From: Promethearchaeota archaeon | GTDB lineage: Archaea; Asgardarchaeota; Lokiarchaeia; Sigyniarchaeales; SOKP01 | DNA length: 64,000 nucleotides | Direction of reading: 5' to 3' | NCBI GenBank assembly: GCA_030606485.1 | Contig: JAUWGH010000001.1 | Location: forward strand, 1 to 64,000 | Shown: one piece after another, positions 25,788 to 39,985 of the stretch | Layout: every line of letters begins with the position of its first letter | How positions within the stretch are numbered: position 1 is the stretch's first letter | Made by a program: the position numbers and the translations under genes | Notes under the pieces: generated by a model | The model's database searches: none | What the model was told of the DNA's origin: nothing | Seen by the model: only the letters and a program-made list of their open reading frames with translations

Positions 25788-26516
25788 TTATAATTCTGCT
25801 AATAAACTTTCAACTTCAGATTTAGAAAGCAATTTATATATTTTCTCTTCACTAGAGATATGAGAAATTTTAATAGTTTCTGCTGTTAAGTCATCATCAA
25901 CACTTTCCTTTATAGCTCTTATTGCTAACAATTGAATTTCTCTTAATGAAAAGGTTGGGTTATATTCCTTCTCAATAAATTCCCTTGCAGTGCTCTCTCC
26001 CGACCCTAATGCATAAGCTTTAAAACTACGATATATCCCGCTTGGAGATGTTGTATAAATCTGAGGCCCATCTGAATCATAACCAATAAAAAATAAACTA
26101 CAACCGAAGGGTCGAATTCCGCCATACTGTGTATAGATTTGTTTTAAATCCGCAATAGATTTTACTAACATATTTATTCTTACTGGTTCATCATATGTTA
26201 ATCTATAAGATTGAGCTTGTACCCTTGCATAGTTTACCAATACCCTAGAATCTGCATGTAAACCTGAAATTGCACACCCTATATGTTTATCAATCTTAAA
26301 TAACTTATCGATTGAATCAATTTCCATTAAAGAAGATGCAATTTTAATATGTGCAGCTAAACACACATCATTTTTTGTTTTTATTCCTACAATTAAAGTT
26401 CCTCTTCTAACTGCCTCTAACGCATACTCTACTTGATATAATCTTCCCTCTGGGGAGAAAATAGTTAGAGCTCGATCATATTGAATTTTTCCGCCTCCAA
26501 ACATCTCAGTTTTCAA
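25788..26516 (-). CDS. psmA: proteasome alpha subunit
   Basis: This subunit forms the outer rings of the 20S proteasome that gate access to the proteolytic chamber. The alpha signature YDRALTIFSPEGRLYQVEYA is at residues 13-32, followed by RRGTLIVGIKTKNDVCLAA. Later motifs YGGIRPFGCSLFFIGYD and YTTSPSGIYRSFKAYALGSG are typical. The length of 242 residues is normal. The N-terminus (MKTEMFGGGKIQYDRA) is close to the usual gate region. No beta subunit is in the window. The frame begins at ATG 26516. Confidence 0.97.
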   Translation of the reverse strand: MKTEMFGGGKIQYDRALTIFSPEGRLYQVEYALEAVRRGTLIVGIKTKNDVCLAAHIKIASSLMEIDSIDKLFKIDKHIGCAISGLHADSRVLVNYARVQAQSYRLTYDEPVRINMLVKSIADLKQIYTQYGGIRPFGCSLFFIGYDSDGPQIYTTSPSGIYRSFKAYALGSGESTAREFIEKEYNPTFSLREIQLLAIRAIKESVDDDLTAETIKISHISSEEKIYKLLSKSEVESLLAEL

Positions 26517-26715: not shown

Positions 26716-27261
26716 TCATAATTCTAAATTTACTTTTTTAAGAATTGCTAATACAAGCGATTTAAAAGCCTCTTTAATATTACCTCCCGTTTTTGCAGAA
26801 GTTTCAAAATAGCCTCCTGAATCATATTCTTCACTAATTGCTCGACCTTCTTCTGTCCCTACTTCCCTATAATCTTGTGCTAAATCAATCTTGTTTCCTA
26901 ACATCACTGATTGTTTCTGCCCAATTACTTTTTCTGCCTCTTCTTTCCAATTCGGTAGGTTTGTGAATGAACTCCGGCGTGTAACATCAAAAACATACAT
27001 TATTGCTGCAGCTCCACGATAGAAGGGGGGGCGAACAAATGAAAAATGACGTTGTCCAGCTAAATCCCAGAGTTGTAATCGTACCTCTAAATCAGGATAT
27101 TCTGGAATTTCAACTTTTTTAATCGCGAAATTGCTTCCAATCGTCATCACATATTGTTCGGTAAATTTCTTCTCTGTATATTGTAAAACTAAGGAAGTTT
27201 TTCCTACTCCTCCATCACCAATAACTACCACTTTATATATTAGTGCTTTTTTTATTGACAT
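26716..27261 (-). CDS. Rab/Ras-like small GTPase
   Basis: A single 181-residue GTPase domain of the eukaryote-like Ras superfamily. G1 is GDGGVGKTS (about residue 15), the switch I threonine lies in VMTIGSNF, G3 is WDLAGQ with the switch II glutamine, G4 is GNKIDL and G5 is TSAKTG. The order and spacing fit Rab/Ras rather than Arf. It ends KKVNLEL with no C-terminal cysteine, so no prenyl anchor is encoded and membrane attachment, if any, must be indirect. Asgard genomes are known to be rich in such GTPases. The next gene on the same strand upstream encodes a longin-like protein, a plausible regulator. Confidence 0.95.
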   Translation of the reverse strand: MSIKKALIYKVVVIGDGGVGKTSLVLQYTEKKFTEQYVMTIGSNFAIKKVEIPEYPDLEVRLQLWDLAGQRHFSFVRPPFYRGAAAIMYVFDVTRRSSFTNLPNWKEEAEKVIGQKQSVMLGNKIDLAQDYREVGTEEGRAISEEYDSGGYFETSAKTGGNIKEAFKSLVLAILKKVNLEL

Positions 27262-27531: not shown

Positions 27532-28401
27532 TTAAGCGGATAATTTTTCAGTTTGAATATCAATAACTCCTTCGATTTCATAGATTTCATTTTTTAAGGG
27601 CTCTAAATTATCTTTATTTAAAAGCTCAACATAAACTTCATAAATGCACTTATCGGCTTCTGTGCATATTCCTGCAGTAAAAATTAATGAGATATTATAT
27701 TTTGAAAAGATACTAACTATATCTTCCATAATTGCTGGTGTTAATTCAGTGCCAAAAATAATTTCCAACTTAGTTATTTCTTTCGAAGTAACTGGGATGA
27801 TATCTAATTTTAATGAATCTCCTCGTATTCTATGCACTATAAATAAATTATTTTTATTTTTAGTCAATTTTTGTAAATTATGAATCATTATTTCAGGAAT
27901 GGAAACTGTTTTAAGCTTTTGAAAAACCTTAAATTTAATTAATCTCCCTTCGGTTTCAACACTTTTAAGCGACAGGATTTTATATAACTTGTCTAATTTA
28001 CTATTTAGAGTTTTAAATCTTTTCTGAACATCTGATTTCTGCATTGAACTTGGATTGTGTATATAAAATGCTTTATACAAATCATCTATTTTTGTGATTT
28101 GATCAATAAATTTTTTCATTTCTAATTGATATTCTTTAATTTCAATTTCCTTTTGAATAATTACCGATAACATAATTAGTTCAATGCTTCCCCGTGCCCA
28201 ACCAGATGGTATTCTAAAAATCCAATTTGCTGTTCGAAGCTCAGAAGAAAAATCATGGGTGAAGAAACCATCATCACCAGTATCTAAGAGAGAAACTATT
28301 TGATTTAAGGTCTCTTTTTTTAAGTTTTTAATTAAATCTTCGGGCTTACTAGCGATTGCTTTAGGTCCTATAATTTTATCAAAATATACAAGTATTAACA
28401 T
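27532..28401 (-). CDS. longin-like domain protein with C-terminal ACT-like domain
   Basis: The 289 residues begin MLILVYFDKIIGPKAIAS, the opening strand and turn seen in longin/roadblock-type proteins of Asgard archaea (VYFDxxxGPK). The longin-like part extends to about residue 110, with SELRTANWIFRIPSGWARG. A Lys-rich helical linker follows. Residues about 205-289 show a beta-alpha-beta-beta-alpha-beta order (KLEIIFGTELTPAIMEDIV, LIFTAGICTEADKCIYEVYV, then VIDIQTEKL) that fits an ACT-type ligand-binding fold. Both domain calls rest on pattern, not on a search. Its position upstream of the Rab-like GTPase suggests a regulator or partner of that GTPase, perhaps ligand-controlled. The gap of 270 bases argues against tight translational coupling. 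Confidence 0.65.
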   Translation of the reverse strand: MLILVYFDKIIGPKAIASKPEDLIKNLKKETLNQIVSLLDTGDDGFFTHDFSSELRTANWIFRIPSGWARGSIELIMLSVIIQKEIEIKEYQLEMKKFIDQITKIDDLYKAFYIHNPSSMQKSDVQKRFKTLNSKLDKLYKILSLKSVETEGRLIKFKVFQKLKTVSIPEIMIHNLQKLTKNKNNLFIVHRIRGDSLKLDIIPVTSKEITKLEIIFGTELTPAIMEDIVSIFSKYNISLIFTAGICTEADKCIYEVYVELLNKDNLEPLKNEIYEIEGVIDIQTEKLSA

Positions 28402-29548: not shown

Positions 29549-30973
29549 TTGAGAATTATTTCAAACGATCTTACAAGAAAATTAAGAGTTTTAATTAAAA
29601 GTAGTAATTTTGATGTTAATAATTATTTAGTTTTTAATGAACTAAACAAAGAACAACAAAAGATCATTGATAATGCTATTTCTATTCTTAAGGAAAATAC
29701 AGTAGACGATGTAAAGGTATTTGGGGGCAATATTGACAAGAATGAAGAAAAGTTTGAGAAATTAAAAGAGAATATTAAGAAAGAATTAGAAAATGAAGAA
29801 TATAATGAAATTAAAAATGATCTTGAAAAATTAATAAATTCTTATGTTAAAAATTTTCAATTATTGATTCCAATGGTTTGCGGAGCGATTATCCCTGTTA
29901 AACAATTACCCTATGTTGAAGTGTATTTTCGGACAATTCCAAGAATTATGGTTGATAATGAAAAACCCGAAAAAATGTCAATTAATAATAATTCAATCTC
30001 ATATTACGGAGAAATTAAATGTATTATTCCACGGATTACCTTATTTGGAAAAATAAAAGATGCAGATCCGTTATTTGCACCCTTGATAGGTGATCTTGAT
30101 TTAGGTGACTTTAATCCGGAAAAATCAGAGCATAAAGGACCAATGATCGGGAATTATTCATATATAACTGAACTAATTACTTCAATGGATAAAGACACAA
30201 CCAAAAATAATTTAACTCGCTATCACGAACAGTATCAAAGGCATGGAGAACCAATTTGTGATTTTCTACTAAAGGATAAAGAATTAATGGATGCAATGGA
30301 AAAACTTTCCTCAGCCATAGAGTCAAAAAGAACCAGCTCATCTGTGTCAGTTTGCGCTATAGCAGTACCAAACATACAAGATAAGTCAACAATTGTTGTT
30401 GTTCAAGATGAAAGTAAATCACCAAACGCATATGCTACTTGCTTTGAAGCATTATTACGGTTCTCTGCCCTATGTTATGAAGCACCCTCTACAAAAAAAC
30501 CTTCAGAAATGAGTACTAGCCCAACACCTCCAACTCAAGCAGGACAGGCTATTGGACCAGGCGGACAGAGATTAGAGGTTTGGACTCAAGAAGAACTTGT
30601 AAAAGATGCAGCTGAGCGCGGGCTTGGAACTGGACTTCCACCAAACATGGAACTATGGACTGAAGAGCAATTAATAGATATGGCAAAATCTCGTACTGAT
30701 TTAGGAGTTAATTTACCTGAATGGTCTGAAGAAGAACTTGAAAAGCTAACAAAATCTCGTCAGGGAACACTAAATATTCCTGAATGGAAGGATACTGGCT
30801 TACCTGTATGTGAAAAGTGTGGTTATACACTCAGAGAAGGTTGGTCTGAGTGCCCTATTTGCAACTGGAAGGTTGGAGCGCCAGTACCTAAAGAAGAGCA
30901 AGAAAAAGATAGTTCTGATGATATTGAAAAAATCGAGCAAATTCAAAATGAAGATAAAAATGATTCAGAATGA
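29549..30973 (+). CDS. uncharacterised protein with W-E-E-L repeats and C-terminal zinc ribbon
   Basis: I do not recognise the family. Residues 1-100 are helical and charged. About 105-315 form a mixed domain (LLIPMVCGAIIPVKQLPYVE, YYGEIKCIIPRITLFGKI, later VSVCAIAVPNIQDKSTIVVV). A Pro/Gly-rich linker follows. About 345-420 carries a short repeated motif: EVWTQEELVKDAAERG, ELWTEEQLIDMAKSR, PEWSEEELEKLTKSR and a remnant PEWKDTG. A zinc ribbon (CEKCGYTLREGWSECPIC) follows at about 423-440, then an acidic tail. The W-E-E-L units may be small helical binding motifs and the ribbon may sense or bind a partner. The start appears to be TTG 29549, with no ATG nearby. It lies 115 bases upstream of the longin-Arf gene on the same strand. 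Confidence 0.75.
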   Translation: MRIISNDLTRKLRVLIKSSNFDVNNYLVFNELNKEQQKIIDNAISILKENTVDDVKVFGGNIDKNEEKFEKLKENIKKELENEEYNEIKNDLEKLINSYVKNFQLLIPMVCGAIIPVKQLPYVEVYFRTIPRIMVDNEKPEKMSINNNSISYYGEIKCIIPRITLFGKIKDADPLFAPLIGDLDLGDFNPEKSEHKGPMIGNYSYITELITSMDKDTTKNNLTRYHEQYQRHGEPICDFLLKDKELMDAMEKLSSAIESKRTSSSVSVCAIAVPNIQDKSTIVVVQDESKSPNAYATCFEALLRFSALCYEAPSTKKPSEMSTSPTPPTQAGQAIGPGGQRLEVWTQEELVKDAAERGLGTGLPPNMELWTEEQLIDMAKSRTDLGVNLPEWSEEELEKLTKSRQGTLNIPEWKDTGLPVCEKCGYTLREGWSECPICNWKVGAPVPKEEQEKDSSDDIEKIEQIQNEDKNDSE

Positions 30974-31088: not shown

Positions 31089-32093
31089 ATGCTAAAAGAC
31101 ATATTCTTTATAAACAGTAGAGATTCCAGTGTACTAAATGTTGATTTAACCCAAGATAATTTTTCAAATATGAAAATAATAAGCTATCCAAAAAAATTAT
31201 CTAACATTGTTAAAAACAAGTCTATCTCAGATCTAATATTGAATTTTAAAGAAAAAGTATCCAGTCTCGAGGTGGGAAAAAATAAAACTCCTGTTTTGTA
31301 TTCCCCATTAATTACTGAAGGAATTAACATATATAGCTGTCTAATTTATCCCGATGCAATTATCGGTTTAATTTTGGATAAAGATGATAATCCCTATGAT
31401 TTAAAAGAAGTTTTTCAAGATCAAATTAACAAATATTTTTTACCTCAAAAGAAAAATATTATTAATAATCATTTCGAATTAGAAACACTATTAATCTCAA
31501 TCTTTATAGACATAAGACGATATTATGATGAAATTTTAGGATATTCTCCATTTTTAGCATTTAGAGATCATGGATCGATATTAAAAGTTTTTATTTTTGG
31601 GCTTGATGAAGCTGGTAAAACTTCATATGTACGAAGAATAACTACGGGAGAATATGATGAAAATTATTATGAACCAACTAGACAGTTCAATATTGATCAT
31701 TATACACATAATGATTACAATTTTATTTTTTGGGATGTTCCTGGTCAAGTAAGACTTAGATCTAAGTGGCTTTTAGGGATGCAAGATTCTAATATGTTAA
31801 TATATATGATAGATGCAGCCGATGAAGTAAGATTTGAAGAATCTAAAAAAGAATTATGGAATATTTTAGTTCGATACGAGCTTGAGGGTGTTCCTCTTCT
31901 AATTTTGGCTAATAAAATAGATTTGCCTTTTGCTCTCACATCAGAAAAGGAATTAATCACACATATTAATTTAAATGAAATTACTAATCGGACTTGGGAT
32001 ATTATGACTATTAGTGTAGCAGATAATATTAATATTAAAAAATCTTTAGATTGGTTAAGTGAGAAAGCATCCACAATTTTACCAGATGTCTAA
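31089..32093 (+). CDS. longin-like domain fused to Arf-like GTPase
   Basis: The 334 residues hold two domains. Residues 1-155 look longin-like: MLKDIFFINSRDSSVL as a strand-turn-strand opening, a further strand pair around NIYSCLIYPDAIIGLIL and closing helices. Residues 160-330 are an Arf/Sar-family GTPase. G1 is FGLDEAGKTS, the GLDxAGKT of Arf proteins; switch I is EPTRQFN; G3 is WDVPGQVRLRSKW, with the Gln present and Pro where Arf has Gly; G4 is ANKIDLP. There is no N-terminal amphipathic helix or myristoylation Gly as in eukaryotic Arf; the longin-like domain takes that place and could link the switch to membranes or partners. The V4R protein encoded next downstream is a likely partner. 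Confidence 0.85.
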   Translation: MLKDIFFINSRDSSVLNVDLTQDNFSNMKIISYPKKLSNIVKNKSISDLILNFKEKVSSLEVGKNKTPVLYSPLITEGINIYSCLIYPDAIIGLILDKDDNPYDLKEVFQDQINKYFLPQKKNIINNHFELETLLISIFIDIRRYYDEILGYSPFLAFRDHGSILKVFIFGLDEAGKTSYVRRITTGEYDENYYEPTRQFNIDHYTHNDYNFIFWDVPGQVRLRSKWLLGMQDSNMLIYMIDAADEVRFEESKKELWNILVRYELEGVPLLILANKIDLPFALTSEKELITHINLNEITNRTWDIMTISVADNINIKKSLDWLSEKASTILPDV

Positions 32094-32271
32094 AATTTAT
32101 CTTGGCTTGCTTTTTTTAATTTTTCTTGCATTCTTTTATTATAATTCAAAACATTAAATAAAATAAAAAAACTGAATTATAATTAGGAAGAATATAATAA
32201 TAATAAACACTAATAATAAACAAGAAAAAAATTATAAAAAGGAATTTCAATTAAAACGAAGGCGCGGAAGT

Positions 32272-32793
32272 ATGTTTAAACGGGTAAAAAAAGTAGAAAA
32301 TGTTGTCTTAGATGAAGAAAAATCTCATATTTATTTAAAAGATACAAATTTACCTCTTCTAATGATTAGACCAGAAGAATTAATTGAGTTCGGAGAATTG
32401 GCTGGCTCAGAATCTGTAGATATCCTAATCTGGGTTGGTAAGTCCATTGGCAAATCCATAGCTAAAGAGTTTATTAAAACTAGCGATGTAGCATCATTAA
32501 AATTTCGAGAGAAAATGAAAATAATTAATTCTATACTTGAAATATTACAGAGTTTAGGATATGGAATTCTTGTTTTAAATTATGGAAAGGGAAATATTAC
32601 TATCGATGTGGGAAATCCTCTTTCAAAAGATTATCAAGATAATATTATGGCAAAAAATATTTGTATTATTTACAATGGAATTTTCACAGGTCTTCTTGAA
32701 GTGATAGGAATAGATAGTGAAGGGAGAGAGATTAATTGTATTTTGAAAGGAGCAGATATGTGCTCATTTAAATTTGAGTTTGAGCAAGATTAA
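32272..32793 (+). CDS. V4R (4-vinyl reductase/TRAPP Bet3-like) domain protein
   Basis: The 173 residues form one V4R domain. SVDILIWVGKSIGKSIAKEF is the early glycine-bearing helix, GILVLNYGKGNITIDVGNPL are the middle strands, and the end ICIIYNGIFTGLLEVIGI followed by INCILKGADMCSFKFEF is the hallmark GxLxGLL...C...G...C.F. In bacteria and archaea such domains bind small ligands. The fold is shared with Bet3 and related TRAPP subunits, which act on Rab/Ypt GTPases in eukaryotes. The location just downstream of the longin-Arf gene, same strand, 178-base gap, suggests they act together, but the gap allows a separate promoter. The start is ATG 32272. Confidence 0.85.
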   Translation: MFKRVKKVENVVLDEEKSHIYLKDTNLPLLMIRPEELIEFGELAGSESVDILIWVGKSIGKSIAKEFIKTSDVASLKFREKMKIINSILEILQSLGYGILVLNYGKGNITIDVGNPLSKDYQDNIMAKNICIIYNGIFTGLLEVIGIDSEGREINCILKGADMCSFKFEFEQD

Positions 32794-37192: not shown

Positions 37193-38404
37193 TTAAACGA
37201 AAAGATTTATCAAAGGCATTATTTCTGTGGTGAAGTAATTTAATTTTTCATCTAAAAGTGATACATCTTCACTCAACAACCAAAGATAAACTGGAATCTT
37301 TTTATCGCTATACTCAAATAGTTTTTCTCCCCGAATAGAGAATTTATTTAACCTATATTCGAGCACCATCGAATTTTCTCTTAATAATCCAACTTTTGAA
37401 TGAAAACTCAATAAAGTCTGCATCAACAAAGCAGTATTGTTAATTAATGTTTCATCTACTTCTTTTTCAGCAAAACTACCAAAAATAAGTCCATCCGTAG
37501 AAATAATAGAAATAGCTCTTCCATTAATCAAATTTGAAAATCGAGATAAAATCTTTTCAATAATCTCTGAGGTCTCGGAGATCTTTTTCAAAGCAACTGA
37601 AAACATTTGTTTAATGGTAAAACTTTCGAAAATCGTAGTATTCACAAAATCAAGAGATTCAACACCATAGTCTTTTACCATATTCTTAAATTTGGTTTTT
37701 GCAGATTCAGCATTAGCTAAAGTTGTTTTATCATTTTTCAAATCAGGATCAAATTTATTTAGAATAATTAATAACTCAGGCTTCTCGTTTAAATCCTCGA
37801 GTACTTGAAGAACAATTTTTAGATAATTTGCGGACTCTACGAATCTCTTAGGATCTTGAACGTCAACTACGTATAAAAGTAAATCCGCTTCAGAAAAATA
37901 TAATTCAGGTCTCTTAAAATATAAATTCTCCCGATACTGGATCTGGCCACCTAAATCCCACGATACTACTCCAAAACCAAAGAAATCCAATTGCTCTCTT
38001 TGTACTCCTCTTGTAGGGAGAATATTTTTAACCATAGAATATTTATCTTGAACTACATTTAAAATCGAAGTCTTTCCACCATTATCCAATCCAATCAATA
38101 AAACTTTTTTCTGTGAAAATCTGCTTGAACTTATGAATTCCTGGATTACTTTTGCAATGCTTATCCATTTTTCTAAAATATCTGCGGTAATTTCTTTATT
38201 TTCTAAAATCTTATCATCAGGTAATTCTGCCAGATCTTTAATTGTATTCACTCCCGATTTCTTGAGAATATTTGCACTAATCGTATCAATTCCAATTAGA
38301 GAATCCACTTTGTATTTTATGATTTCCATAATATCATCAATGAGAATGCTTGATTTGAAAAAGCCCTTTATTTTTTCAATGTCATTTTTTCCTGATATTT
38401 GCAT
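37193..38404 (-). CDS. HhH - Arf/Rag-like GTPase - roadblock/longin-like fusion
   Basis: The 403 residues hold three parts. About 30-75 is a helix-hairpin-helix-type unit (LIGIDTISANILKKSGVNTI, then KDLAELPDDKI), like the HhH repeats of RadA. About 95-275 is an Arf/Rag-type GTPase: G1 LIGLDNGGKTSILN, switch I LPTRGVQRE, G3 SWDLGGQIQYRE and G4 LNKFDPD. About 288-403 is a roadblock/longin-like domain: GRAISIISTDGLIFGSF, a helix LLMQTLLSFHSKVG and LRENSMVLEYRLNKFSIRGE. In eukaryotes, GTPase followed by roadblock is the layout of Rag/Gtr proteins. The Asgard version may act as a lysosome-independent nutrient or positional switch; that is speculation. The N-terminal HhH is unusual for any small GTPase. 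The start is ATG 38404. Confidence 0.82.
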   Translation of the reverse strand: MQISGKNDIEKIKGFFKSSILIDDIMEIIKYKVDSLIGIDTISANILKKSGVNTIKDLAELPDDKILENKEITADILEKWISIAKVIQEFISSSRFSQKKVLLIGLDNGGKTSILNVVQDKYSMVKNILPTRGVQREQLDFFGFGVVSWDLGGQIQYRENLYFKRPELYFSEADLLLYVVDVQDPKRFVESANYLKIVLQVLEDLNEKPELLIILNKFDPDLKNDKTTLANAESAKTKFKNMVKDYGVESLDFVNTTIFESFTIKQMFSVALKKISETSEIIEKILSRFSNLINGRAISIISTDGLIFGSFAEKEVDETLINNTALLMQTLLSFHSKVGLLRENSMVLEYRLNKFSIRGEKLFEYSDKKIPVYLWLLSEDVSLLDEKLNYFTTEIMPLINLFV

Positions 38405-38782: not shown

Positions 38783-39985
38783 ATGAGCCAACGAGTCTCT
38801 GAAAATATTATCATATGTGTTGACGTCAGTCGTTCAATGTATAGAAAGGATTATATACCAAATAGATTAGAATCTTGTATAAAGGCTCTACAAATCCTCG
38901 TTTCTACAAGGCTTCAAAAAGATCCATCAACTTCTTTTGCGATTATAACGATATCTGACAATCCTAAACTCGTTTTGGATTTCAATAGCAATGAAGATAT
39001 AATAATTAAAAATTTAAATAATATTGAATTTGGAGGAAGATCCACTCTGGGGAATACTCTCGCTCTCGGAATCCAAAAACAAATAGGTGAACTAAGAAAA
39101 ATCAGTGCTAAAGTGCCACGAATTTTAATAATTTCTGATGGAAATTATACAAAAACTTCAATTGATCCTTTAAAGATGGCTAATTTAGCAAGTAAGTTAA
39201 AAATAAAGATAGATACAATAAGATTGGGTGAATTAACTCATTTTAATATATTAAAAAGATTGTCAGAGGTCACTAAAGGACAATACTTTTATAATAATGA
39301 TTCTGAGAGTATGCTTAATTCAGCTAGAGTAGTTGCTACATCAAATGTAAGAATTGATATAATAGATATCAAGTCAGCTATTGAAAATCCAGCTTTCTTA
39401 CGTAAAATTGCTGCCTCTCTCTTAAGAACACAGGATTTAACTACAAACCAACAAGAGCGGATAAAACAAATTCGCGGAGAGGTTGATTATAAAAAATGTT
39501 CTATTTGTTTTTCTGATATATGTCCATATTGTGGAGGAACTTTCTTTACAGAGGGAAGATATTGTCCCGATTGTCAAATCCCGATGCACCTCCACTGTGC
39601 CACGGCTTACGCGGCAAGTTTATCAGATGATAAACTAAAAGCTTCAGGGACTTTTCGTTGCCCTCATTGTTTCTATCTTTTAAAAATTCCAGTAGAGGTA
39701 CAGCAAATTACAAAACTGCAAGCATTAAGAAAACCAAGTCTGATTTCTAAATCTGAAACAAATGATGTTTTTTATGCAAAAAAGACATCTTCTTCAGAGT
39801 TAGGTGATGAGGCCCTTTATAGCTCCTGCCCTGTATGTAATATGATATTTGAGGAGGAACAAGATATAATCAAATGTGGTAACTACAAATGTAATGCATT
39901 ATACCACATAAAATGCTTTGAAAAATTAATAGATTCAAGATGTAAAAGCTGCGGAAAAGAGTTGAAATTTGAGGAAGAAGAATAA
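38783..39985 (+). CDS. vWA-domain protein with two RING/PHD-like zinc modules
   Basis: Residues 1-195 form a von Willebrand factor A domain with the metal site DVSRSM (DxSxS, about residue 14), the threonine-bearing GGRSTLGNTLA and LIISDGNYTK. About 228-300 holds many zinc ligands: CSICFSDICPYCGG, then YCPDCQIPMHLHC and FRCPHC. About 345-393 is a second module with C-x2-C, C-x4-C, H-x2-C and C-x2-C spacing (CPVCNMIF to CKSCG), matching C4HC3 PHD or RING-variant types. vWA joined to C-terminal zinc modules recalls TFIIH p44/Ssl1, and vWA also occurs in Rpn10, but neither identity is proven. It could be a ubiquitin-like ligase adaptor or a transcription/repair factor. Divergent from the HhH-GTPase gene. 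Confidence 0.85.
   Translation: MSQRVSENIIICVDVSRSMYRKDYIPNRLESCIKALQILVSTRLQKDPSTSFAIITISDNPKLVLDFNSNEDIIIKNLNNIEFGGRSTLGNTLALGIQKQIGELRKISAKVPRILIISDGNYTKTSIDPLKMANLASKLKIKIDTIRLGELTHFNILKRLSEVTKGQYFYNNDSESMLNSARVVATSNVRIDIIDIKSAIENPAFLRKIAASLLRTQDLTTNQQERIKQIRGEVDYKKCSICFSDICPYCGGTFFTEGRYCPDCQIPMHLHCATAYAASLSDDKLKASGTFRCPHCFYLLKIPVEVQQITKLQALRKPSLISKSETNDVFYAKKTSSSELGDEALYSSCPVCNMIFEEEQDIIKCGNYKCNALYHIKCFEKLIDSRCKSCGKELKFEEEE

Follow-up and report, generated by a model that had tools for sequence, protein, structure and literature searches.

A conserved pair of genes for a longin-like Arf-family GTPase and a V4R protein in one Lokiarchaeal family

The stretch of DNA analyzed here (the window, 64,000 nucleotides (nt)) belongs to a Lokiarchaeal genome of 3.75 Mb (G000) and contains two neighbouring genes on one strand with 178 nt between them. 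The first encodes LA, a longin-like domain joined to an Arf-family GTPase, and the second encodes a protein of the V4R/Bet3 superfamily, here called V4R. The pair is a trait of one Lokiarchaeal family and is not found Asgard-wide. We tentatively prefer the reading that LA is an Arf switch on a longin-like platform, and that V4R is a linked ligand-binding partner which would couple the state of a ligand or of the membrane to LA.

Conservation of the gene pair

To describe the gene order we refer to the family of the window as f1 (65 genomes) and to three related families, used as outgroups, as f2, f3 and f4. Orthologues of LA occur in 55 of the 65 f1 genomes and in a few f2 and f3 genomes. V4R follows immediately 3' of LA, in the same orientation, in 53 of the 55 LA-bearing f1 genomes, and the adjacency is also present in 52 loci of named records, where the gap measures 89-177 nt. 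The two genes are part of a longer block whose order, namely RHH, a 474-amino-acid (aa) protein (up474), LA, V4R, a CO dehydrogenase/prismane gene (CODH), a Rag GTPase and a VWA-RING gene, is kept in nearly all f1 loci. As this surrounding block is syntenic, neighbouring pairs were compared as a yardstick. Among loci with room to test, up474 adjoins LA in 35/36, LA adjoins V4R in 33/35, V4R adjoins CODH in 19/32, and CODH adjoins the Rag GTPase in 14/19. The LA-V4R linkage is tighter than that of V4R and CODH and equal to that of up474 and LA. The original prediction had put both genes forward as a candidate archaeal system; the pair is conserved within f1 and not across the Asgard archaea.

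Several observations weigh against taking the adjacency as a sign of partnership. The block is largely syntenic as a whole, which weakens the argument from adjacency. V4R lies on another contig, away from LA, in two f1 genomes (G104 and G117). AT-rich promoter-like elements are found upstream of both genes, one each, so that a shared transcript is not implied; together with the gap of 89-177 nt this means that LA and V4R are not obviously one operon. The TATA-like AATTATAAAAAG lies approximately 40 nt before the V4R start, and V4R may thus carry a predicted promoter of its own. Harpocratesius (G088, single contig, 93% complete) possesses LA and no V4R orthologue, hence LA can do without V4R.

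These points lead to the first rival explanation, i.e. that LA and V4R are functionally unrelated neighbours kept in place by the conservation of the whole block in f1. The equally tight up474-LA pair, the separate promoter-like elements, the separation of LA and V4R in every outgroup, and the presence of LA without V4R in G088 and G089 are all in agreement with it. It is at odds with the persistence of the LA-V4R pair where CODH was lost, inverted or moved, and with two further clusters of different composition in which V4R orthologues adjoin small GTPases. We regard this explanation as possible, if somewhat doubtful.

A co-loss of LA, V4R and the up474 gene, which are absent together in ten f1 genomes, was considered and rejected. 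In G100, G101, G112, G115 and G149 a contig ends within the block, and in G108, G121 and G138 the marker gene of the block is also missing. As the missing cases are mostly contig breaks, no co-loss is claimed.

V4R in the related families

LA genes of f2 and f3 lie in different neighbourhoods, and V4R is not beside them. In f3 (G087, G093, G091) and f4 (G159, G162) the V4R orthologue stands in tandem with a paralogue, V4R2, and the gene ends overlap or nearly touch. The f3 tandem adjoins genes for a roadblock protein and an MglA-like GTPase (in G091 this GTPase cluster is convergent and one gene away), and the f4 tandem is located directly 5' of a roadblock-Rab fusion. V4R and V4R2 are split in the tree with 100/100 support, and V4R2 weakly matches the DUF2507/YslB profile. 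In f1, V4R2 occupies a separate locus (C2:438163-438654 in G000). In f2/f3, up474, the genes for the Rag GTPase and the VWA-RING protein, and psmA already lie close together, without LA or V4R. Because LA is found elsewhere in the related families and V4R in tandem with V4R2, both genes appear to have been brought together in f1; the simplest reading is that they came from separate loci, joined in the f1 ancestor and stayed together.

V4R is therefore found beside three types of GTPase, so that a link between V4R and GTPases is better supported than by the adjacency to LA alone. G000 contains about 60 small GTPase matches, corresponding to approximately 2% of its genes. At this frequency chance alone is a poor explanation for a GTPase neighbour in three separately built V4R settings (rough, post hoc estimate of about 1e-3 to 1e-4). 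The products of the V4R-V4R2 tandem could possibly form a heterodimer with GTPase partners. The functional link suggested originally gains ground from two further families; the idea of an activation as in TRAPP is not supported.

The GTPase domain of LA

Residues 165-326 of LA match the Pfam Arf family with an E-value of 4.4e-39, compared to 4.1e-8 for Ras and 0.0094 for Gtr1_RagA. The motifs GLDEAGKTS, WDVPGQ and NKIDLP, on which the assignment to the Arf type was first based, are all located in this domain and are near-invariant among the 55 orthologues, which confirms the assignment. The landmarks are the P-loop (G171-T178), switch I (T197), W215-D216-P218-G219-Q220, and N275-K276-D278. Invariant in 55/55 orthologues are G171, G176, K177, F200, W215, G219, R224, W227, N275, K276 and D278, and the catalytic glutamine of switch II, Q220, is kept in 53/55. 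Across the 55 orthologues the interswitch from T197 to D216 spans 19 residues and is of Arf length; the spacing from T48 to D67 in Arf1 is 19 residues as well. Judging from these residues, we take LA to be an active GTP switch.

The nearest solved chains are Arl8 (approximately 1e-30) and the Asgard protein HodArfR1 (2e-27), and superposition on Arl8b and HodArfR1 (8ouk/8oul) in Foldseek yields target TM-scores of 0.91-0.94. In the GTPase tree LA is monophyletic with a support of 100/98 and separate from the Ras and Rag types. With Asgard ArfR and eukaryotic Arf/Arl proteins LA shares the fold of the G domain, the Arf-length interswitch, the W-D-x-x-G-Q pattern and the catalytic glutamine; it differs from them in having WDxPGQ instead of WDVGGQ and in forming a clade of its own.

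The N-terminal domain of LA

In the AlphaFold2 (AF2) model of LA, built on 49 orthologues with a mean pLDDT of 82, the amphipathic N-terminal membrane helix of Arf is replaced by a folded domain of about 150 residues and a low-confidence linker (152-161). The predicted elements between residues 2 and 150 are E2-10, E28-33, H43-59, E69-76, E79-86, E90-96, H102-124 and H128-150 (E, strand; H, helix). Their order as read from the secondary structure of the full model, b1b2a1b3b4b5a2a3, is that of a longin. Longins differ from roadblock domains by having no N-terminal helix and one additional C-terminal helix (Tran et al. 2024, PMC10933270). The motif DDNPYD opens helix a2 and is conserved in 44 orthologues.

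Longin identity was not confirmed by sequence, none of three comparisons being significant. None of the 44 members matched the Pfam longin family even at an E-value of 10, a profile search of the PDB with the N-terminal domain gave no match, and hhalign against 17 Pfam-supported Asgard longins gave a co-linear alignment that is not significant (P 0.011, probability 3.8%). All 50 matches listed by Foldseek for the full LA model were Arf structures, so that this search is uninformative on the N-terminal domain. The proposal of a longin-like domain in place of the Arf helix stands for the predicted topology and is not confirmed at the level of sequence, and we call the first 150 or so residues longin-like on the strength of the model.

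A phylum-wide profile search with this domain returned LA itself and two weak relatives sharing the motif DENPND, i.e. a stand-alone protein of 137 aa (G084) and the start of a protein of 349 aa (G170). The end helix of the former (L295:875-1285) weakly resembles a SNARE motif (Pfam E-value 0.095, below the cut-off). Viral contigs scanned for the domain contained no relatives.

The V4R protein

Pfam V4R (PF02830) is matched by 47/47 orthologues (best E-value 2.7e-9), while the protein of the window taken alone scores 26.3 bits and falls under the cut-off of 31 bits. The V4R model (pLDDT 81.5) matches Bet3, PoxR and MopR in Foldseek with E-values of about 1e-6, 7yh3 with about 7e-6, and the fold of Thor TRAPPC3 with values comparable to those of Bet3, MopR and PoxR. 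Query TM-scores amount to 0.58-0.67 against MopR/PoxR, compared to 0.50-0.60 against Bet3 and Thor TRAPPC3. The glycine doublets in helices 2 and 5, which define Bet3/V4R (PMC2253512), are kept (G56 in 58/59, G60 in 55/59, G136 in 59/59 and G140 in 47/59 orthologues). V4R belongs to the V4R/Bet3 superfamily, as was predicted for the gene after LA. According to the phylum-wide search, 212 of the 228 genomes carry this family, frequently as proteins of about 500 aa with two V4R stretches.

Within the superfamily V4R is nearer to the ligand-binding V4R domains than to TRAPP subunits proper. The putative zinc ligands C131, E153, C156 and C164 form a Cys-Glu-Cys-Cys residue pattern that is complete in 52/59 orthologues. 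The zinc ligands of DmpR are C151, E172, C177 and C185 (PMC7264223), and the site in Thor TRAPPC3 consists of four cysteines (PMC10933270). The V4R sensor domains of DmpR, PoxR and MopR share with V4R the fold and this pattern, the last two cysteines being 8 apart; V4R differs from them in that it stands alone, without AAA+ or DNA-binding domain, beside GTPase genes. The methanogen output domain 1 profile is matched by 39/47 orthologues, and the resemblance to the profiles of methanogen output domains and of the MsvR regulator is weak. Pfam TRAPP is matched by 6/47 orthologues with a best E-value of 0.012, which argues against a TRAPP subunit proper. In other f1 genera the C-terminus is extended by a conserved tail (23-31 residues) whose usual ending is VS-(D/E)FL-(A/S)(S/T)L, and this tail is absent from the genus of the window and from f3/f4.

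The claim that V4R activates the GTPase in the manner of TRAPP is not borne out, given the weak TRAPP matches, the short C-terminus and a zinc site of the DmpR/PoxR type. A second rival explanation keeps this idea in the form of a minimal TRAPP, in which V4R, alone or with V4R2, and the longin-like domain would act as exchange factor for the fused Arf domain. Longin plus Bet3-like folds are the folds of the TRAPP core (Bet3/Trs31/Trs33 with the longins Bet5/Trs23), and V4R and V4R2, with their overlapping or near-touching genes in f3 and f4, recall the Bet3 heterodimers. The correspondence is limited by the weak or missing TRAPP profile match, by an Arf rather than a Rab partner, and by a longin covalently attached to the GTPase. 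TRAPP activates Rabs, and the C-terminus of Bet3 acts near switch I (PMC10152722); the patchy occurrence of the V4R tail and the location of V4R2 at another locus in f1 do not favor such an assembly either. An exchange-factor activity of V4R is possible, the sequence features pointing to it being weak or absent, and the minimal TRAPP as a whole appears improbable to us.

No more probable is a third explanation, by which V4R would act as a soluble sensor of a ligand or of redox state, tied to the neighbouring CODH gene or to transcription and not to LA: the sensor-type zinc site, the weak methanogen output domain and MsvR matches and the CODH gene directly 3' of V4R in many loci agree with it, but V4R has no DNA-binding domain, the V4R-CODH adjacency is often broken where LA-V4R is retained, and near V4R in f3/f4 GTPases are present and CODH was not recognized.

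A possible mechanism

The intact motifs of the G domain, the longin order in the AF2 model, the fold of V4R, the adjacency in 53/55 genomes and the three GTPase settings together favor a partnership of V4R and LA. The longin-like platform may take the place of the N-terminal helix by which Arf binds the membrane. V4R could be a zinc-stabilized dimer whose pocket accommodates a hydrophobic ligand, and might dock on LA, most simply via the longin-like domain, as Bet3 does on Bet5/Trs23 in TRAPP. As GTPase and longin-like domain form one polypeptide, a longin-bound V4R would sit near the switch in cis. V4R could link the GTPase to the state of a ligand or of the membrane. In TRAPP the GTPase contacts the longins and the C-terminus of Bet3 (PMC10152722).

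A wider scenario, which we consider unlikely but worth stating, is that Lokiarchaeal V4R proteins are dedicated small-GTPase regulators. A V4R/V4R2 pair would then have served roadblock-linked GTPases before V4R was redeployed in one family to the longin-Arf fusion, giving a TRAPP-like assembly of V4R fold, longin and GTPase that answers to a hydrophobic ligand and predates or parallels the eukaryotic TRAPP.

Relation to known systems

Longin-GTPase fusions have already been reported for MK-D1 (Promethearchaeum), and V4R/TRAPPC3 proteins for Loki and Thor including MK-D1 (Tran et al. 2024, PMC10933270); links between longin, TRAPPC3 and GTPases were proposed there from domain fusions (PMC10933270). 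The MK-D1 fusions resemble LA in joining an Arf/Rag-like GTPase to a longin in a Lokiarchaeon, with AF2-predicted structures in both cases. The difference lies in the gene order, since GTPase genes of MK-D1 generally share no operon with genes for roadblock, longin or TRAPPC3 proteins (PMC10933270), whereas LA is stably located beside the V4R gene. The conserved pair thus qualifies the statement that gene order in MK-D1 hardly shows which regulator serves which GTPase (PMC10933270). MglA/MglB is comparable insofar as the V4R-V4R2 tandem of f3 adjoins an MglA-like GTPase and a roadblock protein; MglAB itself has no V4R, and the pair in the window consists of an Arf-type GTPase with a longin-like domain.

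The literature searched describes neither the LA-V4R pair nor the V4R-V4R2-GTPase clusters; longin-Arf proteins may be included in the Asgard Arf papers of 2025 (Vargova; Zhu). The word "undescribed" in the original prediction does not apply to the fusions or to the V4R/TRAPPC3 proteins. New are the clusters of V4R, V4R2 and GTPase genes and the conserved LA-V4R pair, with its apparent origin from two separate loci. The route from a prokaryotic ligand-binding V4R to Bet3 in a GTPase activator is a question raised previously (PMC2253512). Lokiarchaeal V4R genes beside longin and roadblock GTPase genes provide small soluble proteins with which one can ask whether V4R regulated GTPases before eukaryotes.

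Location of the features and neighbouring genes

Table 1. Positions of LA, V4R and further features (window coordinates unless a contig or locus is given; ORF, open reading frame).
Feature	Position	Strand	Length	Basis or remark
LA, longin-like + Arf-family GTPase	31089..32093	+	334 aa	ORF, Pfam, AF2, orthologues
LA residues 1-151, longin-like domain	31089..31541	+		b1b2a1b3b4b5a2a3; AF2 prediction, orthologue conservation
LA residues 164-328, Arf-type G domain	31578..32072	+		Pfam, motifs, Foldseek
Intergenic region LA/V4R	32094..32271		178 nt	TATA-like AATTATAAAAAG
V4R/Bet3-superfamily protein	32272..32793	+	173 aa	ORF, orthologue Pfam matches, fold, conserved residues
up474	29549..30973	+	474 aa	C-terminal zinc ribbon
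V4R-V4R2 tandems by roadblock + MglA-like GTPase or roadblock-Rab	L132:7570-11567, L135:4822-8851, L232:6537-10034, L138:6913-8986, L139:8211-10307
Proteasome alpha	25788-26516	-
Ras-like GTPase	26716-27261	-
Stand-alone protein	27532-28401	-	289 aa
Rag-type GTPase	37193-38404	-		Gtr1_RagA 3.9e-22
VWA + RING-like protein	38783-39985	+		Ssl1/Tfb4-like VWA, Prok-RING
Longin-GTPase fusion L254 (G000)	C10:878057-878677		~290 aa
Longin-GTPase fusion L007 (G000)	C2:121841-122206		~290 aa

The Rag-type GTPase belongs to the conserved block, so that a 12-kb stretch holds GTPases of the Ras, Arf and Rag type. The genes for the VWA + RING-like protein and for proteasome alpha are tied to the up474 gene in f2/f3 too. 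In one f1 genome (G136, L091:9612-10895) a Ras-like GTPase gene comes right after V4R, at the position of CODH in many other genomes.

The two further, paralogous longin-GTPase fusions of G000 group apart from LA in the GTPase tree; the longin domain of L254 passes the Pfam cut-off. The stand-alone protein of 289 aa is encoded directly 5' of the Ras-like GTPase on the same strand. Its first 155 or so residues are homologous to the N-terminal domains of longin-Arf fusions in other Lokiarchaeia (G081, G082 and G084). The identity to L234 is 35%, compared to 37-41% among the four fusions.
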